DNA of 64,000 nt from Bacteroidia bacterium (GTDB taxonomy: Bacteria > Bacteroidota > Bacteroidia > B-17B0 > Aurantibacillaceae). The position numbers and the translations under genes were made by a program. The stretch is from assembly GCA_026414605.1 (NCBI GenBank), contig JAOAIP010000037.1, forward strand, positions 1 to 64,000. The letters are read 5' to 3'. The number at the start of each line of letters is the position of its first letter. The first letter of the stretch is position 1. This document shows positions 2,187 through 38,824 of the stretch, one piece after another. The notes beneath the pieces are model-generated. The model was given only the letters and a program-made list of their open reading frames with translations. It had not been told where the DNA came from and did no database searches.

Positions 2187-4907
2187 TTATTTTATAGGTT
2201 GGAGGGCTTCACCAGAAAATTCAATGTCTACAATTTCGCCAATTGGTAAATTAGGTCCGATATTAAATCCTAATCTATTGATACTAGTTTTTCCTTCAAA
2301 GCCGATAATTAAAAACTTTTGTGACATCATTTCTGCAGTATCCTTAGCAGTGATATTAAATTTTAATTGAATATCGCGGGTAACATCTTTTAATGTTAAT
2401 TGTCCAATTCCAATATAAGCAAAATTTTTATCAGTAGTGTCTTTTTCTATTTTACTTATAGATAGCACAATAGATTTATATTTAGCAACATCAAAAAATT
2501 CGGGCTTTTCTTTTAAGTGTCCGTCTCTTGTGGCATTTTGAGTATTAATAGATGCGGGATTTAAAACTACAAAAATTTTTGTTTCTGCATTAAAATCAAC
2601 ATAACCACTATCTACATTGATAACACCGCTTGTTTTTGCAACTAAATGTTTTACAGAAAAACGAACAGAAGTATGAGTAGGATCTATATTGAATTTTCCT
2701 GTAATTTCTTCAATAGGAAGAGATGAGATGGATTTTTCAATACTTGTATTTTCTGTTTTTTCTTCTGATTTTGTAGTAGTATTTTTATTGACAGCAATGT
2801 AAGGAGCGATAATAAGTGATACGATGCTCATCAGTTTAATGAGGATATTCATTGAAGGACCAGAAGTGTCTTTGAATGGGTCTCCAACTGTATCGCCTGT
2901 AACGGATGCTTTATGTGGTTCGGATTTTTTGTAATACATTTGGCCGTTGATTTCAACGCCTTTTTCAAAAGATTTTTTAGCATTGTCCCAAGCACCACCA
3001 GCATTGTTTTGGAAAATACCAATAAGTACGCCAGAGACAGTTACACCGGCTAATAATCCACCTAATACTTCTGGACCAAAAGTAAATCCAATAATTACAG
3101 GGATAATAATGGCTAATGAACCAGGAAGAATCATTTCTCTAATAGATGCTTTGGTTGATATTTCTACACATTTTTCATATTCGGGTTGTGCTTTGTATTC
3201 CATAATACCGGGAATTTCTCTAAATTGTCTTCTTACTTCATTAACCATATCCATAGCGGCTCTACCTACTGCGGAAATGGCTAATGATGAAAACAAGTAA
3301 GGAATCATAGCACCGATTAATAATCCGCCTAAAACTTCTGCGTTGTAGATATTGATAGCATCAATACCTGCAACGCCAACGAAGGCAGCAAATAGTGCTA
3401 AAGAAGTTAGAGCAGCAGAAGCAATAGCAAATCCTTTTCCAGTAGCGGCAGTTGTATTTCCAACAGCGTCTAAGATATCAGTTCTGTGTCTTACTTCGGG
3501 GGGTAATTGGCTCATTTCTGCTATTCCTCCGGCATTGTCTGCTATTGGTCCAAAGGCGTCAATAGAAAGCTGCATAGCCGTGGTGGCCATCATACCGGCG
3601 GCAGCAATAGCCACGCCGTATAAGCCCGCAAAATAATAAGAGGTGATAATTCCTCCTGCTAAAATAATAGAGGGAAGGGCTGTAGATTCCATACCAACTG
3701 CAAGACCACCGATGATATTGGTAGCGTGTCCTGTTCCGGATTTTTGAACGATGGATAACACAGGTCTTTTACCCATTGCAGTATAATATTCAGTAATCCA
3801 ACTCATTAAAGCACCTACAATCAATCCGATGATAATAGAAATTAATACATCGTTGGCTGTAAATACAAAACCTCTTAAAGTCATAGTTTCAGGTAATAAC
3901 CATTTAACGATAAATACAGAGGCAATCATTGTAAAAATGATAGAAGTCCAGTTTCCTAAATTTAATGCTTTTTGAACAGCCGCAGTGTCTTCTTTTGTAG
4001 TTTTTACAAACCAAGTACCTACAATTGAAAATATCAAACCTACACCGGCTATGATCATCGGTAATAAAATAGGTGCTAAACCACCGAAATTATCTTTTGA
4101 ATCAATTTCTTGTCCTAATACCATTGTTGCTAAAATAGTTGCTACATAAGATCCAAAAAGGTCTGCTCCCATACCAGCCACATCACCTACATTATCACCC
4201 ACATTATCGGCAATAGTAGCAGGATTACGAACGTCATCTTCGGGGATACCTGCTTCTACTTTACCAACAAGGTCTGCACCTACATCTGCGGCTTTTGTAT
4301 AAATACCACCGCCTACACGTGCAAATAATGCAATGGACTCTGCACCCAATGAAAATCCTGTGAGCACTTCAATTGTTCTTTTCATCTCATCACCCGTTAC
4401 AGGCGTGCCTTTTGCAAATAAATAATAGAATACAATAAATAGTGATCCTAAACCAAATACTGCTAAACCAGCCACACCGAGCCCCATTACAGAGCCACCT
4501 GTAAAAGAAACTTTTAATGCTTGTGTTAAAGATGAACGAGCCGCTTGTGCTGTTCTTACGTTGGCTTTGGTGGCTATACTCATTCCAATAAATCCTGCAA
4601 ATGCAGAGGAAACAGCACCAATAATAAATGCTATTGCAATTAGCCAGTGAGAATGTATTTTGATTCCATTTACTTCATGAATAGTTCCACTATATGCTAA
4701 TAAGAGTGCAACTATAATAGCAAAGTAAGAAAGTATTTTCCACTCTGCTTTCAAAAAGGCCATTGCTCCTCTTGCAATGTATCCTGCTAATTCTTGCATT
4801 TTGGGTTCGCCTGCATCTTGTTTGGTTACCCACCAATATCTTATCATCATTACTAATAAGCCAATAAGGCCAAGTACTGGTACAACAAACATTACATTTT
4901 CATTCAT
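2187..4907 (-). CDS. hppA: K+-dependent membrane-bound pyrophosphatase with C-terminal YceI domain
   Basis: This protein (906 residues from the chosen start) couples pyrophosphate hydrolysis to cation pumping. Residues 1 to ~700 are a complete multi-pass membrane pyrophosphatase. They carry the loop [20 protein letters not shown], then [20 protein letters not shown], and later [12 protein letters not shown] and [14 protein letters not shown]. The [10 protein letters not shown] motif has Ala and Gly where K+-independent enzymes have Lys and Thr, so the K+-dependent class is expected. The pumped ion (H+ or Na+) is not decided. Residues ~738-906 are a YceI-like lipocalin-fold domain ([48 protein letters not shown]). 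Both termini of the pyrophosphatase fold are known to face away from the cytoplasm, so the YceI domain should sit in the periplasm. ATG 4907 is chosen because an upstream ATG (4940) overlaps or precedes the -7 element at 4927-4934. The gene is monocistronic, with its own terminator. Confidence 0.92.
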
Positions 4908-4926
4908 AGTTAAATTTTTAGGGGGG

Positions 4927-4934
4927 CAAATATA
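4927..4934 (-). promoter_or_regulatory. Bacteroidota -7 promoter element of hppA
   Basis: On the minus strand the sequence is TATATTTG followed by C, an exact match to the TAnnTTTG consensus of the Bacteroidota primary sigma factor. It lies 20 nt before ATG 4907, implying a very short leader. Confidence 0.6.
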
Positions 4935-4940
4935 GGTCAA

Positions 4941-7811: not shown

Positions 7812-10010
7812 TTACTTTACATTTTTTTCTAAGAAATTAAACATTTTTGAATACAAATGAAAACGGGTATAGCCCCCATAAATACTATGGTTTTTATTGG
7901 GGTAAACAAAAAATTCAATATCTTTGTTTAATTCTACACATTGTTTGACAAATTCCATTGCGTTTTGAAGATGCACATTGTCATCTGCAGCCCCGTGAAT
8001 GAGTAAAAGTTTTCCTTTGATGTTTTTAATATCATTGATAGGTGAGAGTTGATTGTATCCATTCTGATTATCTTTTGGCAAACGCATATAGCGTTCGGTG
8101 TAGATATTGTCGTAGTATTTCCAATTACTTACAGGGGCTACGGAAATGGCGGCTTTAATTTCATCACTGGCTTTGGTAATCATATTGAGAGCCATAAATC
8201 CTCCGTAACTCCATCCCTGAAAAGCAATTTTGTTTTTATCTACATAAGGTTGTTTTTTGAGAAAACGAACAAATTCTATTTGATCTTGTGTTTCTAATTT
8301 TCCAAGTTGTAAATACGTGCAGTGTTGAAATGCTTTTCCTTTTCCAAAAGTTCCACGACCATCTACACAAGCCACAATGTAGCCCTGTTGCGTTAAAAAT
8401 TGATGAAACCAATATTCATACTCCCAAGCATTATTGACTTTATTTATCCCAGGACCATTATATGCAGTAATGAATACAGGATATTGTTGATTGGGGTTAA
8501 AATCAGCGGGCTTCATTATCCAGTAGTGAAGTTCTATGCCATCTGAAGTTTTGAATGAATAAAATTCTTTTTTACTAAGTTTGTAATTTTTTAGTTTCTC
8601 TTTTAAGGAAGCATTATCTTCTAATACTTGAATTAATTTGCCATCGGCACTATGAAGAGAATATACAGGCGGTTCATTAGCAGAATGATGAGAATAAATG
8701 TAATACTTATAACTTGGCGAAAATTCAATTTTATTAAATCCTTCAGCACTTGATACTAATTTTTTATCCTTTCCATTCCATTTAATTTTGAATACAGGAC
8801 GATGAATGACGCCATTTTCCGTAGATGTATAATAAATTTCCTTTTTTTGTTCATCAACGGCTAAAACATTTTCAACATCAAAATTTCCTTGCGTAATGGC
8901 ATTTACTAATTTGCCTTTAATATCATATAAATATAGATGTTGAAAACCATTTTGATTACTCATCCATATAAATTGCTGATCATTATTGATAAATTGCAAG
9001 ACATCATTGATTTCAATATAAGTATCTGATTTTTCTTCAAAAAATTTTTCATAAGTATTCTTTTGTGGATCAAACAAAAAAAGTTCTAAATGATTTTGAT
9101 ATCTGTTCAAAAGTGAGATACATAGTTTTTCAGTTTTTGAAAGCCAATTAATTCGCGGGATGTAAAGGTCTTGAAAATTGTTAGGTGTGGGGACTTTTAT
9201 AGTGTTTGAATTTTTTACATCGTATACATATAACGTAACTTCTGAATTATCTTCGCCTGCCTTGGGATACTTAAAAGTATATTTGTCAGGATATACATTG
9301 CCATTGTAGATATCCATTGTGTATTCTTTGACATTAGATTCATTAAACTTCAAATATGCAATATAATTTCCATTTGGACTCCAATCAAAAAAATCGGGCT
9401 TGCTAAATTCTTCTTCGTACACCCAATCTGCCCACCCATTTTTAATTTTATTCCATTCTCCATCTGTGGTGATGGCAGTTTCTTTTAATGTAGTCAAATC
9501 TGTAATGTAGATATTATTGTTTTTGACATAAGCGATTTTGGTTTCATCGGGAGAAAATTTTGGAAACATTATAGGATCGTTATTAGAAAGAGAAATGAGT
9601 TTTTTATTAGCAATATCCCATGAATAAGTAATAGATTTTGAAGAATGTCTATAAATGAGTTCTGTATTGGTAGAAATAAGCAAGTACTTTTCTTTATCAG
9701 AAAGCGAATAATCATTTAGTTTCAAATTCGGATTTTGTTGAATAATATCATTGTAAAGTACTAATGTTTGCGTAGTTTTTCCGGTAATTAGTTCTTTTTT
9801 AATAATGTTTTTTTGTTCATCTTCTGTAATGTAAAAGTCGCCTTGCTTTGTAAAAGTAAAATAAGGCGGTGGGGCAGTTCTAAAAGTATATTTAACCCAA
9901 ATATCTTCCAGGGAAATTTTATTTTGAGAAAATGTATATTTTGATGAATACAAAAAGAATACTGCAATAAGAATGAAATAAAAATTAAATAAACGGCTAT
10001 ACTTTGTCAT
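7812..10010 (-). CDS. Dipeptidyl peptidase IV-like serine peptidase (family S9)
   Basis: The 732-residue secreted enzyme would remove N-terminal dipeptides, classically X-Pro. It has an N-terminal hydrophobic signal (FILIAVFFLYSS). The eight-bladed propeller region includes DWVYEEEFSKPDFFDWSP, the double-Glu motif that anchors the substrate amino terminus in true DPP-IV enzymes. The C-terminal alpha/beta hydrolase domain supplies the triad: Ser601 in GWSYGGFM, Asp676/677 in HGAADDNVH and His708 in NKNHSIYGG. Length and order match bacterial DPP-IV, common in protein-degrading Bacteroidota. The gene is convergent with the histidine kinase gene and has no operon partner. Confidence 0.92.
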   Translation of the reverse strand: MTKYSRLFNFYFILIAVFFLYSSKYTFSQNKISLEDIWVKYTFRTAPPPYFTFTKQGDFYITEDEQKNIIKKELITGKTTQTLVLYNDIIQQNPNLKLNDYSLSDKEKYLLISTNTELIYRHSSKSITYSWDIANKKLISLSNNDPIMFPKFSPDETKIAYVKNNNIYITDLTTLKETAITTDGEWNKIKNGWADWVYEEEFSKPDFFDWSPNGNYIAYLKFNESNVKEYTMDIYNGNVYPDKYTFKYPKAGEDNSEVTLYVYDVKNSNTIKVPTPNNFQDLYIPRINWLSKTEKLCISLLNRYQNHLELFLFDPQKNTYEKFFEEKSDTYIEINDVLQFINNDQQFIWMSNQNGFQHLYLYDIKGKLVNAITQGNFDVENVLAVDEQKKEIYYTSTENGVIHRPVFKIKWNGKDKKLVSSAEGFNKIEFSPSYKYYIYSHHSANEPPVYSLHSADGKLIQVLEDNASLKEKLKNYKLSKKEFYSFKTSDGIELHYWIMKPADFNPNQQYPVFITAYNGPGINKVNNAWEYEYWFHQFLTQQGYIVACVDGRGTFGKGKAFQHCTYLQLGKLETQDQIEFVRFLKKQPYVDKNKIAFQGWSYGGFMALNMITKASDEIKAAISVAPVSNWKYYDNIYTERYMRLPKDNQNGYNQLSPINDIKNIKGKLLLIHGAADDNVHLQNAMEFVKQCVELNKDIEFFVYPNKNHSIYGGYTRFHLYSKMFNFLEKNVK

Positions 10011-32053: not shown

Positions 32054-32126
32054 AAAATTATTTTTTGATGCGAAAGTAGATAATTATTAAGGAAAAGACA
32101 AAGAGAGACAGTAAACTACTATTGAT

Positions 32127-32304
32127 TAAGATGTTTTTTGAAATGATATGAAAAAAATCAATAGTAACAATGAAAAGTAGAGATGAAAAAAAGAGAGAAG
32201 AGTGCTTTTTCAAACTATCAAATTTTAAAATTTAATTTATTGACAATCAATTTTGTAATTTTTTATTAACAGTTATCTTCCACAATAGTTAAAAAAATGT
32301 TACT
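32127..32304 (+). repeat. Duplicated leader region, copy A
   Basis: Blocks AGATGTTTTTTGA, AATGAAAAGTAGAGATGAAA, GAGAG, AATTTATTGACAATCAATTTT, TATTAACAGTTAT and CACAATAGTT occur in the same order at 34438-34600, where they precede the copper monooxygenase gene. This copy precedes the cytochrome-like T9SS gene at 32337. The two leaders appear to derive from one duplication. Confidence 0.65.
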
Positions 32305-32336: not shown

Positions 32337-33176
32337 ATGAAAAAAGAATTATTAGTAAGTGGTACAATTTTGATTACAAGTGTTTTAACCACTTCTTTTA
32401 TAGTAAAATTGTCATCTGGCATTCCTGAAAGAACAGGTAGCCCAGGAGAAACCACTTGTTCTGCTTGTCATAGTGGAGGAACTGGAACTACTGTGGTGAA
32501 TATCTCTGCTACGCCCGCTTTTACGAACAATGAATATGTGCCAGGAACTACCTATACCGTGAATGTTACTGTAACTAATAATTCGTATTCAAATTTTGGA
32601 TTTGGCTGTGAAATTTTGGATGCAAATTCTAATACAGATGCGGGTACTATGACCACTCCATTAACGGGCGTTCAATTCTTAACCGCAAGTAATGGTCGTA
32701 AAAATGCAGTTCATACTTCTCCTAAATCAGAGACAGGAAGTGCTACCTTTTCTTTTGTATGGACAGCACCTACGGGTACCAATAATATCGTCATTTATGC
32801 AGCAGGAAATGCCGTAAATGGCAATGGAACAAATTCGGGCGATGCAGTTGGTTCTACGTCATTATCCCTTTCTGCTAATGCAAATGGTATTAAGAAAATT
32901 ACTAATAGTGTAAAAATAAATGTTTATCCTAATCCTGCATCCGATTTTATTTCTATTCAAGTTGAAAATATTTCAGAAACAAGAAACGTAAATATAGAAT
33001 TATGGGATTTGAAAGGCAACAAAGTGGCTCATTTAAATGCTTCTCAATTAAATGTAGGAACTCAAAATATCCGTGTGTTCTTACCTGATAATATAAATAA
33101 TGGCTTGTATATCTTAAAACTCCAATCTGCAAATAATCAAACCATTGCTTCAAAAATGATTATAGTTAAGAAATAA
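32337..33176 (+). CDS. Secreted choice-of-anchor V (Reeler-like) protein with CxxCH motif and T9SS sorting tail
   Basis: The 279-residue protein has an N-terminal signal/membrane segment (MKKELLVSGTILITSVLTTS). GSPGETTCSACHSGG (one CxxCH, a possible heme c site, within the first ~55 residues) is followed by a beta-sandwich (YVPGTTYTVNVTVTN, FGFGCEILD, SATFSFVWTAP) of the Reeler/choice-of-anchor V kind. A type A T9SS tail closes it (VYPNPASDF, NGLYILKLQ, IIVKK). It is therefore predicted to be secreted and surface-anchored through type IX secretion. It is the first gene of a run with two more redox-type proteins. Whether heme is bound is unknown. Confidence 0.82.
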   Translation: MKKELLVSGTILITSVLTTSFIVKLSSGIPERTGSPGETTCSACHSGGTGTTVVNISATPAFTNNEYVPGTTYTVNVTVTNNSYSNFGFGCEILDANSNTDAGTMTTPLTGVQFLTASNGRKNAVHTSPKSETGSATFSFVWTAPTGTNNIVIYAAGNAVNGNGTNSGDAVGSTSLSLSANANGIKKITNSVKINVYPNPASDFISIQVENISETRNVNIELWDLKGNKVAHLNASQLNVGTQNIRVFLPDNINNGLYILKLQSANNQTIASKMIIVKK

Positions 33177-33180
33177 TATT

Positions 33181-33828
33181 ATGTTTCATTTTCTACAAAA
33201 TCAAAAATCAAGAATACTTGTAGCAATACTGATAATAATTAGTGTTATTACAAGTTACGAATGTAGAAAGGATAAGTATGTTGTTCCCGTATGTTATGAT
33301 ACCGATGTACAGCCCATTTTAACTAATAAGTGTTCAATGAGCGGTTGTCATAATTCTGTTGATAAGGCAGCAGGGCTTGATTTATCGTCCTATGCGGGAG
33401 TTCAAGCAAGTTTTAAAAAAGATGAGATATTAGAATCTATAAATAAAGGTAAAATGCATCCTGCTGGTTATCAATCATTAACTTCTAATGAAAAGCAAAT
33501 TTTGGCTCGCTGGGCAGCACAAGGATATACCAAAGGGGAATGTTCATTAAATAGTGTAGCATGTGATACAACAAATGTTACTTATACCAATTCCATTAAG
33601 GTGATATTTGATAATAATTGTACAGGTTGTCATAATGCTTCTAATCCATCAGGTGGTTGGGCTTTAGATACTTATAATTCTTCCAAAACCTGTGCTCAAA
33701 GTGGTCGTTTGTTGGGTGCTGTTAAATGGTTAAGTGGGTATTCTGCAATGCCAAAAGGAGGAAATAAACTTTCTGATTGCGATATAGCAAAGATTCAAAA
33801 ATGGATTAATGTAGGGATGCCTAATTAA
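33181..33828 (+). CDS. Cytochrome c-like lipoprotein with two heme-binding motifs
   Basis: The 215-residue protein starts with a transmembrane or signal segment ending ITSYEC, a possible lipobox. It has two cytochrome-like modules. The first has CYDTDVQPILTNKCSMSGCH (a CX4CH variant) followed by LDLSSYAGV and KGKMHPAG, where Met may be the distal ligand. The second has IFDNNCTGCHNAS (normal CxxCH) and SAMPKGGNKLSDCDIAKI. The repeated helix-CH-...-MP layout is that of periplasmic c-type cytochromes or their relatives. It begins 4 bp after the upstream gene, so the two are one transcript. It probably acts in electron transfer at the envelope. Confidence 0.78.
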   Translation: MFHFLQNQKSRILVAILIIISVITSYECRKDKYVVPVCYDTDVQPILTNKCSMSGCHNSVDKAAGLDLSSYAGVQASFKKDEILESINKGKMHPAGYQSLTSNEKQILARWAAQGYTKGECSLNSVACDTTNVTYTNSIKVIFDNNCTGCHNASNPSGGWALDTYNSSKTCAQSGRLLGAVKWLSGYSAMPKGGNKLSDCDIAKIQKWINVGMPN

Positions 33829-33847
33829 TACTAATAAAACAGAGTAA

Positions 33848-34417
33848 ATGAGAAAATATAAGTTGGGTTTAAAATTTTTTTCACTTTTTTTAATTTGTGG
33901 AAATTTTTTATCAAATGCTCAAAGCGTTTATATTGGAAAAGAAAAATCAACAAGCATTGTTTTTTATTCGGATGCACCGTTAGAAAAAATTGAAGCTAAA
34001 AACACTTCTGCTACTCCTGTGTTTAATTTATCTACAGGAGATTTTCAAATTCGTGTTCAAATGCAAGCATTTCAATTTAAAAACGATTTAATGAAAGAAC
34101 ATTTTAATGAAAATTATGTAGAAAGTGATAAGTATCCATACTGCACATTTAAGGGGAAATGTAATGTAACGAATTTTGAAGAAGGAAAAGAACAAGATGT
34201 AATTATGACGGGTACTATGTATTTACATGGTGTAAGCAAACTTATTTCTGTAAAAGGTAAAATAAAAAAACAAAACAATGAATTAATTTTATTCTCTGAA
34301 TTTTTCATCAGACCTGCTGATTATAACATCAAAATTCCAACAATGCTTACTAAAAAAATTGCAGAAGAAATAAAAGTAACTTTTAAAAGTACTTTAAACG
34401 AATACAAAAAAAATTAA
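33848..34417 (+). CDS. Secreted YceI-like protein (paralogue 1)
   Basis: The 189-residue protein has a signal peptide (FSLFLICGNFLSNAQ). A YceI-type domain follows, with STSIVFYSDAPLEKIEAKN near the start, MKEHFNENYVESDKYPYCTF (the [12 protein letters not shown]-like loop), VTNFEEGKEQDVIMTGTMYL, HGVSKLISVKGKI and a closing EEIKVTF strand. YceI proteins are periplasmic lipocalin-fold carriers of isoprenoid-type lipids; this branch has no known ligand. It follows the cytochrome-like gene by 20 bp. It is clearly related to the protein at 37288-37854 (shared FNEN.VES.KYPYC.FKGK.NVTNFEEGKE pattern). Confidence 0.82.
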   Translation: MRKYKLGLKFFSLFLICGNFLSNAQSVYIGKEKSTSIVFYSDAPLEKIEAKNTSATPVFNLSTGDFQIRVQMQAFQFKNDLMKEHFNENYVESDKYPYCTFKGKCNVTNFEEGKEQDVIMTGTMYLHGVSKLISVKGKIKKQNNELILFSEFFIRPADYNIKIPTMLTKKIAEEIKVTFKSTLNEYKKN

Positions 34418-34437
34418 TCTTTTTTTCGCTATTGTCC

Positions 34438-34606
34438 CAGATGTTTTTTGATACCATCAAAATAATAGCAATGAAAAATGGAGATAAAAAAAGAGAGTGA
34501 ATATTTTTTTAAATCCTCAAAATTGAATTTATTGATAATCAATTTTTTATTTTATTTTATTAACAATTATTAACACTTTTTTTGCACAATAGTTTAAAAT
34601 TGTGAG
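34438..34606 (+). repeat. Duplicated leader region, copy B
   Basis: AGATGTTTTTTGA, AATGAAAAATGGAGATAAA, GAGAG, GAATTTATTGATAATCAATT, TATTAACAATTATTAAC and GCACAATAGTTT correspond block for block to 32127-32304. The copy ends at the promoter of the copper monooxygenase gene. Confidence 0.65.
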
Positions 34607-34614
34607 TACATTTG
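34607..34614 (+). promoter_or_regulatory. -7 promoter element of the copper monooxygenase gene
   Basis: TACATTTG followed by C is an exact TAnnTTTG match 20 nt before ATG 34635. A TTTG at 34581-34584 is a possible -33 element. Confidence 0.6.
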
Positions 34615-34634
34615 CATCAACAAATTAATTTTTT

Positions 34635-36245
34635 ATGAGAAAGAAAATTTTATTTTTATTATTTAAGACATGTATAGTGGGTATAAATTTCTTTTTTTTA
34701 ATGAATGCTCAAAATTCTGTATTAACTTACACTCCTACTTGGGCGGATGATATTGCTCCTATTTTTTACAATCATTGTACTACTTGTCATCATACAGGAG
34801 GGATAGCTCCCTTTTCATTAATTGATTACAATTCGGCATTCATATATAGAAACAGTATAAAATATGATGTATTAAATGGTAAGATGCCTCCTTGGCCACC
34901 TGATACTTCTTATACTCGTTTCATTGGTGAAAGAATTTTAAGTCAACAAGAAATTCAAAAAATAGTAGATTGGGTTAATGGTGGTGCTCCTCAAGGTAAT
35001 ATCAATAATGCTCCCCCTGCACCTACATATACTAATACCTATCATTTACCAGGTACTCCTGATTTAGAAATTAAAATTCCTCAGTATACCAGTAAAGCCA
35101 CCACATACGATGAATATGTTTGTTTTTCAATACCATTAAATAATTCTAATTTAAGATACATTAAAGCGGTAGAAATTGTGCCGGGGAACCAATCTATTGT
35201 TCATCACGTAATACTTACAGCAGATACAAGTAGTTCTAAGCCATCTTCTGTTACCATTGATACTAATTGTTATTCTATTCCTAATCCTAACTCTCAAATT
35301 GGAATAGCTGGATATGATCCTGGGGCAGGACCGGTTGTGTTACCATCTATCTCGCCTTATAAATTTGGTATTCCGCTTTATCCTAATTCTAACTTAGTAT
35401 TTCAAATACATTATCCTAAAGGGTCGGTAGGCAAATTAGATAGTACAAAAGTAAGATTGTATTTCTATCCTATCAATGAAACAGGCATTAGAACCGTTTA
35501 TACACTTCCAGCATTATACAATGGAAATTTAGTCATACCTCCTAATACAATTCAAACCTTCACTAATGAGTGTCCTTCTTCGGGTAGTTATTCTAATTGC
35601 ATTATTCCATTTGATTTTACCTTTTTGGCTAGCAATCCACATCAACATCTTATTGGAAAAAGTATAGTCAATTTTGCTGTCTCACCTAATTTACAGGATA
35701 CTATCAAACTTATACGAATTAATAATTGGAATTTTAAGTGGCAAGGTTATTATTGGTATAAAAAACCTATTAAAGTTCCTGCGGGATACAAATTAGTTGG
35801 TTTTCATACTTATGATAATACTTCATCTAACCCCAATAATCCATATAATCCACCTGATACTATTAAGGTAGGATATCAAACAACCGACGAGATGTTCTTT
35901 GATTCATTTGTACTTACTTATTATTTACCTGGAGATGAAAATATTAATATGGATAGTTTAATGACTGTTTCTGTAAAAGAATTTTATGAAAAACAAACTT
36001 TGAAAGGAGAATTAATAATTTATCCAAATCCTTGTGAAAATTATGTTTATGTTGAAATAAACAGAAATAAAGTATTTTCAGTTAGAATTAGAGATTTATC
36101 CGGAAAAGTTTTAAAAGATGAAAAAGTTTTTAATGGTCATAATTTAATAAATCTTTCTGAATTGAGTAATGGCTTGTATTTTGTTGAACTATGGAATGGT
36201 AGTTATTTGGAAGATATTAAAAAAGTGGTTGTTTTAAAAAAGTAA
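34635..36245 (+). CDS. Cytochrome c / copper type II monooxygenase-like fusion with T9SS sorting tail
   Basis: The 536-residue secreted protein has a signal peptide (residues 1-25). A cytochrome c module follows, with CTTCHH at 48-53 and a Met in GKMPPWPPD. Next is a two-domain region like PHM/DBH copper monooxygenases. All six expected copper ligands can be placed: His190, His191 (SIVHHVILT) and His259 (QIHYP) for CuH, and His336, His338 (NPHQHLIGKS) and Met420 (TTDEMFFDSF) for CuM. Spacings agree with peptidylglycine hydroxylating monooxygenase. A T9SS type A tail follows (IIYPNPCENYVYVEI, NGLYFVEL). The heme could deliver electrons to the copper centre in place of ascorbate. The substrate is unknown. 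Confidence 0.85.
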   Translation: MRKKILFLLFKTCIVGINFFFLMNAQNSVLTYTPTWADDIAPIFYNHCTTCHHTGGIAPFSLIDYNSAFIYRNSIKYDVLNGKMPPWPPDTSYTRFIGERILSQQEIQKIVDWVNGGAPQGNINNAPPAPTYTNTYHLPGTPDLEIKIPQYTSKATTYDEYVCFSIPLNNSNLRYIKAVEIVPGNQSIVHHVILTADTSSSKPSSVTIDTNCYSIPNPNSQIGIAGYDPGAGPVVLPSISPYKFGIPLYPNSNLVFQIHYPKGSVGKLDSTKVRLYFYPINETGIRTVYTLPALYNGNLVIPPNTIQTFTNECPSSGSYSNCIIPFDFTFLASNPHQHLIGKSIVNFAVSPNLQDTIKLIRINNWNFKWQGYYWYKKPIKVPAGYKLVGFHTYDNTSSNPNNPYNPPDTIKVGYQTTDEMFFDSFVLTYYLPGDENINMDSLMTVSVKEFYEKQTLKGELIIYPNPCENYVYVEINRNKVFSVRIRDLSGKVLKDEKVFNGHNLINLSELSNGLYFVELWNGSYLEDIKKVVVLKK

Positions 36246-36273
36246 ATTTTTCTTGTATTAAAATGTATCATTT

Positions 36274-37251
36274 ATGAATATCATTAGTAAATTTAAATTA
36301 TTCGCAAGTGTAGGAGTGGGAATTACTTTTTCATTATTAAATTTTAATTGCTCATCCAACTCTAATAATGAGAGTTCAAGTTCTGACACATCAAAGTTAT
36401 CACCGCACATTTTTGTTTTTGGCGGTAAAGATAAAAGGAATATGGTAAGCTCTACGGATGGTTATAATCCTGAAACAAATACTTGGACTTCTTTTAGACG
36501 AATGCCAGAACCAAGAGTAGGTTCTTGTGCTGTTTCATACAAAAATAAAATTTTTGTTATCGGTGGATGGAAAGGAAATGTTACGAATAATAATGACGTG
36601 TTTTATCCAGAGAAAAATTCATGGGAAACAAAAGCCCCAATGATTACGCCAAGAATAAGTTTTGGGGCAACATGCTTTAATGACAAGATTTATGTTATTG
36701 GAGGATGGAGAAACAATAGTTCAGGTGTTAACGAAGAATATGACATTATTCAAGATAAATGGACGGCTAAAACCCCAATGCCCACTTTTAGAGAAGCATT
36801 AGGTGTAGCTGTTGCTGATAGTTTAATTTTTGCTATCGGAGGCATAAACAAAGATTCAGTATTGAATGTCAATGAAGCTTATAATCCCCTAACAGATAAA
36901 TGGGAACAAAAAGCCCCTATGCCTACCCCAAGATTTGGTGTGGGAATAGCTACGGTTAATAATCTTATTTATGTAATAGGAGGTTCAAACTCAAAAAAAT
37001 CATTAAATATAGTAGAAATGTATGATCCAAAATTAAATAAATGGACAACCAAATCCCCTATGCTTACTGCAAGACAAGGGATGGCAGTAGCAGTATTAAA
37101 TGATTTAATTTACGTGATAGGGGGGCAAATTAATGATACAACTATTACTGATATAGTAGAGGTATATGATCCTATTCAAGATAAATGGCAAAGTAAAGCC
37201 CCTATACCTACCAAACGTTCTGATGCCTGTGCTGCTTCCTATAATCCTTAA
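36274..37251 (+). CDS. Kelch-repeat beta-propeller lipoprotein
   Basis: The 325-residue protein has a signal peptide ending FNCSS, a lipobox, so it is probably lipid-anchored. About six Kelch repeats follow, each with a Gly-Gly strand and a spaced Tyr/Trp pair: IFVIGGWKG, IYVIGGWRNN, IFAIGGINK, IYVIGGSN, IYVIGGQIN, alternating with YNPETNTW, YDPKLNKW and YDPIQDKW. Six such repeats make a closed propeller that usually binds protein or sugar ligands. It lies 28 bp after the copper monooxygenase gene, which suggests a partner role in the same complex. No catalytic residues are recognised. Confidence 0.9.
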   Translation: MNIISKFKLFASVGVGITFSLLNFNCSSNSNNESSSSDTSKLSPHIFVFGGKDKRNMVSSTDGYNPETNTWTSFRRMPEPRVGSCAVSYKNKIFVIGGWKGNVTNNNDVFYPEKNSWETKAPMITPRISFGATCFNDKIYVIGGWRNNSSGVNEEYDIIQDKWTAKTPMPTFREALGVAVADSLIFAIGGINKDSVLNVNEAYNPLTDKWEQKAPMPTPRFGVGIATVNNLIYVIGGSNSKKSLNIVEMYDPKLNKWTTKSPMLTARQGMAVAVLNDLIYVIGGQINDTTITDIVEVYDPIQDKWQSKAPIPTKRSDACAASYNP

Positions 37252-37287
37252 GTTTTTAAGAATAAATTATTTCAAATCAAGAAATAT

Positions 37288-37854
37288 ATGATAAAAAAAA
37301 CATTGCTTTTATTTGTTAGTTTTACATTTCATTTAATTTCATTTAAATCATTCTCACAAGATATTTATGTGGGAAAAGAAAAATCAACAACTATTACTTT
37401 TTTATCTGTAGCCCCTTTAGAAAAAATTACATCTACCAATAAAGCCGCTATTCCTGTTTTTAACTCATCTACGGGAGATTTTCAAATACGAATACCAATG
37501 CGTCAATTTGAATTTCAAAATCAACAAATGAAAGAGCATTTTAATGAAAATTTTGTAGAAAGTGAAAAGTATCCATATTGTGTCTTTAAAGGAAAATCTA
37601 ATGTTACTAATTTTGAAGAAGGTAAAGAATATACTGTAACAATATCTGGAATTATTGAGTTACATGGTGTTAAAAAAGAATTAAGTGTAACAGGACAAGT
37701 CAAAAAACAAAATAATTCACTTTTTATGAATGCAAGTTTTGATATTGTTCTTGCTGATTTTAATATTGAGATTCCAAAATTACTTTCTGATAACATTGCC
37801 AAGCAAGTCAAAGTAACTTTTAATAGTGAACTCGTAGAATACAAGAAAAAATAA
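37288..37854 (+). CDS. Secreted YceI-like protein (paralogue 2)
   Basis: The 188-residue protein has a signal peptide (LLLFVSFTFHLISFKSFSQ) and a YceI-like beta-barrel. STTITFLSVAPLEKITSTN, MKEHFNENFVESEKYPYCVF, VTNFEEGKEYTVTISGIIEL, HGVKKELSVTGQVKK and ADFNIEIPKLL can be read in order. It is a close paralogue of the protein at 33848-34417. It ends 4 bp before the DUF5777 beta-barrel gene, the partner commonly found beside such YceI proteins in Bacteroidota. A lipid or quinone-like ligand is plausible but unproven. Confidence 0.83.
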   Translation: MIKKTLLLFVSFTFHLISFKSFSQDIYVGKEKSTTITFLSVAPLEKITSTNKAAIPVFNSSTGDFQIRIPMRQFEFQNQQMKEHFNENFVESEKYPYCVFKGKSNVTNFEEGKEYTVTISGIIELHGVKKELSVTGQVKKQNNSLFMNASFDIVLADFNIEIPKLLSDNIAKQVKVTFNSELVEYKKK

Positions 37855-37858
37855 TTAG

Positions 37859-38824
37859 ATGATGAATAGAAAAGTATTTTCTTTGTTCCTAATAATTTTA
37901 ATTTTTCTTTCACAACTATTTTCTCAAGAAGATGATTTGCTAAAACTTGTTGAAGATATTGAAAAATCAGGGAAAAATAGAGAGTATGTCTTTGCTACTT
38001 GGAAAGCATATCGTTTAGGAAATGCTCAAACCACTGAAACCGTCAAAAAAAATCATTTGGAATATCGCATCTTGCACCGCTTTGGAAATGTAGCAGATGC
38101 AAATAAAACACTCAATCAGATTGCTCACACTGCTTTTGGGCTTGACGCGGCTAATGATATTAGAATGTCTTTGGAATATGGTATCACTAATGATATTACA
38201 ATAGCGTTAGGAAGAAGTCGTGTCAATGAATTGGTAGATTTATCGGCTAAATGGCGTTTTTTGAAACAAACTACGGACTTCAAAATCCCCGTGAGTATTG
38301 CTTTATTTTCAAGTATGGGTTATACGACAATGAGTCCCGACCGTTTGTATGCGAATGTCGCTGTAAAAAACTTTCCAACAAGAGAAGCACATCGTATCAA
38401 TTATGTAACTCAACTCATTATTGCCAGTAAATTAAATTCTTGGTTGTCATTAGAACTCTTGCCTACTTGGTTGCATAGAAATTTTATCGTGCAAACATTT
38501 AATCCGAATACAGGGCGAGAAGATGGTAATGATTATCCTATTTTAGGAATAGCAGGACGTATTAAGTTAAGCCATCGTGTTACATTTTTCGCAGATTATT
38601 TTTACAACTTTCATCCTTATTTCAAAGATAATCCAAATGTTTTTATGCCTTTATCTGTTGGATTTGAAATAGAAACGGGCGGACACGTTTTTACTTTGTT
38701 TTTTGCTAATAATTCTGCTATTGTAGAAAATAATTTTTTAGTTAGTACAACAGATACTTGGAGTAAAGCACAAATTAAATTTAGTTTTTGCATCTCTCGT
38801 ACTTTTTCGTTGAAAAAAGAGTAA
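37859..38824 (+). CDS. DUF5777-family outer-membrane beta-barrel protein
   Basis: The protein is 321 residues with a signal peptide (FSLFLIILIFLSQLFSQ). Family traits are FATWKAYRLGNAQTTET, LEYRILHRFGNV, FGLDAANDIRMSLEYGI, LGRSRVNELVDLSAKWRFL and a C-terminal FSFCISRTF with aromatic barrel-closing character. DUF5777 proteins are predicted transmembrane beta-barrels, regularly encoded beside cytochromes and YceI proteins. It is the last gene of the envelope redox locus, and it overlaps no other gene. It could link surface-exposed redox proteins with periplasmic ones; this is inference from context. Confidence 0.83.
   Translation: MMNRKVFSLFLIILIFLSQLFSQEDDLLKLVEDIEKSGKNREYVFATWKAYRLGNAQTTETVKKNHLEYRILHRFGNVADANKTLNQIAHTAFGLDAANDIRMSLEYGITNDITIALGRSRVNELVDLSAKWRFLKQTTDFKIPVSIALFSSMGYTTMSPDRLYANVAVKNFPTREAHRINYVTQLIIASKLNSWLSLELLPTWLHRNFIVQTFNPNTGREDGNDYPILGIAGRIKLSHRVTFFADYFYNFHPYFKDNPNVFMPLSVGFEIETGGHVFTLFFANNSAIVENNFLVSTTDTWSKAQIKFSFCISRTFSLKKE

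Follow-up and report, generated by a model that had tools for sequence, protein, structure and literature searches.

Gene content and layout of the locus

The locus described here lies in a Bacteroidota genome of 2.48 Mb, assembled in 76 contigs, and by the window we mean the whole stretch of 64,000 nucleotides that was analysed. Its list of ORFs contains seven that follow one another on the + strand between positions 32337 and 38824, with intergenic gaps measuring, in gene order, 4, 19, 217, 28, 36 and 4 bp. Pfam and NCBIfam searches bore out an earlier sequence-only reading of the same DNA in the description of seven adjacent, co-directional genes and of their families. The genes, together with two copies of a dispersed repeat identified by genome search and alignment, are the following:

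32117..32297, + strand: MITE-like repeat copy of ~175 bp, ahead of the choice-of-anchor V gene
32337..33176, + strand: choice-of-anchor V / Reeler protein with one CxxCH motif (CSACH) and a T9SS type A tail (Pfam/NCBIfam)
33181..33828, + strand: c-type cytochrome with one CxxxxCH (CSMSGCH) and one CxxCH (CTGCH) motif, probably a lipoprotein (SYEC) (Pfam/NCBIfam)
33848..34417, + strand: YceI1, a lipocalin-like protein; the sister species have one YceI, its orthologue (Pfam YceI)
34428..34605, + strand: second, more diverged repeat copy, in the 217-bp gap ahead of the copper enzyme
34635..36245, + strand: copper fusion, namely a mono-heme c domain, a PHM/DBH-type two-copper monooxygenase core and a T9SS tail
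36274..37251, + strand: Kelch propeller of six repeats, probably a lipoprotein (Pfam Kelch)
37288..37854, + strand: YceI2, a diverged extra YceI copy (Pfam YceI)
37859..38824, + strand: DUF5777 protein, predicted outer-membrane barrel (Pfam, E 1.9e-76)

YceI1 and YceI2 are tandem paralogues, 59% identical in one search, and the DUF5777 gene is the last member of a conserved YceI-DUF5777 pair; the structure predicted for its product by AlphaFold2, from two sequences only, has a pLDDT of 40 and was set aside. Elsewhere in the window, residues 25-711 of a single ORF of 917 aa (2187-4940, - strand) match a membrane pyrophosphatase (H_PPase), to which a YceI domain is fused at the C-terminus (750-912). 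Two relatives, G030 and G007, have weak YceI matches within ORFs of 1009 aa and 941 aa, respectively, which may represent the same H_PPase-YceI fusion.

Because YceI1 and the copper gene are 217 bp apart, the seven-gene run is probably made of two transcription units, and each of the two halves is preceded by a copy of the repeat. These two copies are 70% identical over 189 bp and belong to a set of about 23 in the genome, about 21 of which lie beyond the window pair (L225-L244), while none was found in three sister genomes. In the aligned copies the ends of the repeat form a 15-bp terminal inverted repeat, CACTATTGTCCAAAA...TTTTGGACAATAGTG, which is typical of a MITE. A promoter-like TTTG-N22-TACATTTG is present before the copper gene at 34581-34614, and the right end of the repeat may supply its -33 element at 34581. 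Duplication of the operon promoter alone was rejected as the source of the two similar leaders, since the leader is itself the repeat with its ~23 genomic copies.

Architecture and ligands of the copper fusion

The fusion protein is 536 aa long and consists of a signal region, a c-heme domain (~38-115), the N (~146-261) and C (~288-439) domains of a PHM-type core and a T9SS tail (462-533). The corresponding Pfam matches are Cytochrome_CBB3-like, Cu2_monooxygen, Cu2_monoox_C and the T9SS tail; the CBB3 and Cu2_monooxygen N-domain matches fall under the curated Pfam cut-offs and were accepted because the ligands are conserved and the predicted structure matches PHM in Foldseek. The heme motif is formed by C48, C51 and H52, with a conserved M84 as the likely axial ligand, as expected of a c-type cytochrome. 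In an alignment of 62 homologues, comprising 40 T9SS-type and 22 lipoprotein-type proteins, C51, H52, M84, H190, H191, H259, H336, H338 and M420 are identical in every sequence and C48 is present in all but one gapped row; a second alignment, made from 37 proteins, shows no variation at any of the ten heme and copper ligands. The adjacent histidines H190 and H191 with the third histidine H259 correspond to the CuH site of peptidylglycine alpha-hydroxylating monooxygenase (PHM), and the HxH pair H336/H338 with the distal M420, which falls inside the Cu2_monoox_C match (288-439), to the CuM site. The histidine and methionine residues proposed as copper ligands in the sequence-only reading are thus invariant and of PHM type, and the union of a c-heme domain with a PHM-like copper core is equally real, the two domains remaining joined in the aligned homologues.

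Comparisons with solved structures point in the same direction. The HH, HY and HxH motifs of the family profile align with those of DBH and PHM, and the closest solved relative is human dopamine beta-hydroxylase, both by sequence (E 5e-7) and by profile (E 4.5e-13). An AlphaFold2 model of the fusion, built from the 37-protein alignment, reached a pLDDT of 87.4 and a pTM of 0.73; the first 30 Foldseek matches to it are all PHM/DBH entries (E 1e-14, probability 1.0), and the two-domain beta-sandwich fold of PHM is recovered with TM-scores of 0.54-0.70, normalised to the PHM chains. On motif homology to PHM, the copper ligands of the fusion would cluster as they do in that enzyme.

At the C-terminus, a T9SS type A sorting domain scores above cut-off with both PF18962 (46.3 bits) and TIGR04183 (38.8 bits). 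The tail is present in 36 of the 37 close homologues, and export of the fusion to the cell surface is therefore likely, in agreement with the extracellular location first proposed from the tail.

Distribution, neighbourhood and history of the operon

Of 100 relatives, 81 gave a match to the fusion, frequently in the form of two paralogues. The PF03712 model under-detects the family (35 of 396 genomes matched) and an alignment was therefore used as query; among the 396 genomes sampled across Bacteroidota about 25 carry a full-length fusion, a figure read from a table of 75 listed matches, many of which span the cytochrome part only. A scan of species genomes gave at least 589 matching coding stretches, and the 80 matches kept from it are nearly all labelled Bacteroidota, with the cultured Crocinitomix catalasitica ATCC 23190 among them; no plasmid-borne copies were found. 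The fusion is widespread and strictly conserved in Bacteroidota. Tandem duplicates of the fusion occur at L136 (3204-6331), L165 (10028-13463) and L184.

The source genome itself carries a second paralogue (C4; L009, 9288-10688) of 466 aa, with a lipobox-like start in place of the tail and a DUF420 gene (8723-9298) directly upstream. DUF420 lies one or two genes upstream of the lipoprotein-type paralogue in 11 of 21 loci, and we take it to resemble CtaM, an oxidase assembly factor; this arrangement suggests a link between the lipoprotein-type paralogue and cytochrome oxidase assembly. It also lends some weight to a different view of the copper core, which would act as a surface oxidase or peroxidase, or as a copper handler, with the heme as electron sink or sensor, and whose lipoprotein paralogue may serve copper assembly of the oxidase. 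We consider this unlikely, however, as complete CuH and CuM sets, the CuM methionine included, are kept in both paralogues, and a PHM catalytic mechanism therefore fits better than simple copper storage.

The surroundings of the fusion bear on the broader claim that all seven genes constitute one envelope redox system. In such a system the other two cytochromes would feed the fusion, the YceI proteins would either ferry an isoprenoid quinone or present a lipid as substrate, and DUF5777 would pass the same molecule through the outer membrane. The shared direction of the genes, the short gaps of 4-36 bp (with the one exception of 217 bp) and the presence of heme motifs in three of the proteins speak in its favour, as does one further genome (L114), in which the copper enzyme lies near a cytochrome-DUF5777-YceI-choice-of-anchor V set. 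However, L114 is the only one of ~120 fusion loci (40 from relatives and 80 from named species records, some genomes being in both sets) in which more sensitive searches placed DUF5777 near a T9SS-type fusion; YceI was near it in four of these loci and a Kelch protein in none. Conversely, no copper core was found near DUF5777 in any of 39 DUF5777 loci, picked by hand from the match list and therefore giving indicative fractions. Furthermore, the one wide gap contains the mobile-element-like repeat, and the sister species keep a four-gene operon without the fusion (see below). On these neighbourhood surveys the seven-gene system was rejected as a candidate, and a single redox system built around the fusion, as the sequence-only reading had proposed, is distinctly unlikely: its combination with YceI, DUF5777 and Kelch genes is not repeated in other genomes, and the grouping with the six other envelope genes is peculiar to the source genome.

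Among 141 fusion loci, a CxxCH gene lies within two genes of the fusion in 7, and no conserved redox partner gene was found beside it. In 13 loci the fusion is immediately preceded by an alpha/beta-hydrolase-like gene and in 7 immediately followed by a small cytochrome, and none of the loci read revealed a general neighbour. In one lineage (L126, L132, L150, L158, L101 and L123) a T9SS-type alpha/beta-hydrolase-like gene is followed by the fusion and then by an ExbB/ExbD/TonB-like cluster.

The operon without the copper enzyme is, by comparison, widespread. DUF5777 is present in 91 of 100 relatives; in the same 39 loci YceI lies within two genes of it on the same strand in 36 and a CxxCH-motif protein within four genes in 18. 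The operon of two congeneric species (L185 and L186) reads choice-of-anchor V, cytochrome, YceI, DUF5777, with orthologues of our choice-of-anchor V gene at the equal position, and in L186 a divergent SDR gene stands upstream, as in the window. Identities to the L186 operon are 64% for choice-of-anchor V, 73% for the cytochrome (second half only), 74% for YceI1 and 77% for DUF5777. More generally, orthologues of the cytochrome that are 64-73% identical adjoin YceI-DUF5777 in the sister species, YceI1 is 73.6% identical to its counterpart in G002 and 66.3% to that in G001, and DUF5777 77% and 71%, respectively. YceI2 is the odd one: its identity to the sister YceI proteins, as to YceI1, is 55.7-57.5% in this comparison, with 56% to the L186 protein, and no counterpart of the Kelch gene was found beside the operon in relatives. 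The 71% identical orthologue of the copper enzyme in G002 is on another contig among other neighbours. Since the sister species keep the four-gene operon and the fusion orthologue is elsewhere, the block formed by the copper enzyme, Kelch and YceI2 genes either was inserted into a pre-existing operon or built up inside it, and the locus is an ordinary operon interrupted by this block between YceI1 and DUF5777. The repeat marks one edge of the block, and a repeat-mediated rearrangement is therefore a plausible way in which it was placed there.

The likely function of the operon itself would lie in the outer envelope, in handling a redox-active isoprenoid or lipid. No paper on DUF5777 was found in open-access text, and cytochrome-YceI-DUF5777 is a conserved envelope module worth study by itself.

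Proposed electron path and comparison with known systems

In PHM and DBH, CuH relays single electrons to CuM, the site at which O2 and substrate react. By analogy, the attached c-heme would be a natural donor to CuH, and the reading that we hold to be, on balance, somewhat probable is that of a surface two-copper monooxygenase reduced by its own c-heme, whose gene was placed, with the Kelch gene and the second YceI gene, inside the unrelated, widespread operon. Electrons from another cytochrome would enter the c-heme (C48/C51/H52, M84), pass to the relay copper CuH (H190/H191/H259) and from there to the oxygen-activating CuM (H336/H338/M420), which with O2 would hydroxylate a C-H bond in an exported or environmental substrate. 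If electrons do reach the coppers in this way, the heme would replace or supplement diffusible ascorbate. The main difficulty of this mechanism is electron supply to a surface protein, as T9SS export would carry it beyond the outer membrane. More tentatively, and with less confidence, the family may be seen as a phylum-wide branch of PHM/DBH with a covalent c-heme donor, acting in C-H hydroxylation at the surface, and with a lipoprotein paralogue that would be linked to respiration or to the assembly of the terminal oxidase.

Alternatively, the heme domain might only anchor or stabilise the protein, while a small reductant such as ascorbate reduces the coppers directly, in the manner of animal PHM. 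That enzyme needs no heme domain for its activity, and the DOMON domain of DBH is not known to bind heme. The two heme cysteines, the proximal histidine and the methionine are, however, retained in the T9SS-type and lipoprotein-type families alike, which points to a functional heme and leaves this alternative highly improbable.

Donation by a heme has a bacterial precedent: in vitro, bacterial copper monooxygenases of the LPMO type can be reduced by a c-type cytochrome, namely the CjX183 domain of Cbp2D from Cellvibrio japonicus (PMC8981238). The likeness to the c-heme reading lies in a c-type cytochrome as donor to an extracellular copper monooxygenase; the LPMO, however, is a separate protein with a one-copper histidine brace, whereas the fusion combines heme and a two-copper core in one chain. 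No LPMO family is found among its Pfam matches, and its copper ligands are internal, with no N-terminal histidine brace.

For the host operon, and not for the fusion, a better parallel is that of the YceI lipocalin BcnA and the cytochrome b561 LcoA, which protect against lipid peroxyl radicals; most YceI structures named in the same work hold an isoprenoid, such as ubiquinone-8 (PMC9113575). In both cases a YceI-family protein is genetically linked to a cytochrome, and cytochrome-YceI-DUF5777 may have a similar redox role in the envelope. The operon differs in having c-type cytochromes and the DUF5777 barrel, and neither the seven genes nor those directly flanking them gave a Pfam match to cytochrome b561. 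An outer-membrane barrel with adjacent c-type cytochromes also recalls the porin-cytochrome conduits of MtrAB type; the cytochromes here, however, have one or two heme motifs per protein and not the ten of a decaheme cytochrome, the barrel is of about 250 aa in a DUF5777 protein of 321 aa, and neither a periplasmic multiheme protein with a large barrel nor a large surface multiheme protein is present.

The fusion itself is, on well-supported sequence grounds, a conserved variant of the PHM/DBH superfamily, with which it shares the two-domain fold and the HH...H and HxH...M ligand sets, whose order and context also agree. It differs in its N-terminal c-heme domain and T9SS tail, in being bacterial and in an identity of ~18%, and neither a DOMON nor a lyase domain was found in it; no paper describing a PHM-cytochrome fusion was found in open-access text, subscription papers and preprints lying outside the search. 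If the proposed mechanism is true, a protein family that is conserved in environmental Bacteroidota and poorly annotated would gain a function. PHM and DBH have been studied as ascorbate-fed animal enzymes of hormone synthesis, in which the route of single electrons to CuH is a classic question, and a natural heme-c/PHM fusion with its ligands intact would offer a tractable bacterial model, with the heme as an optical reporter on the electron path.
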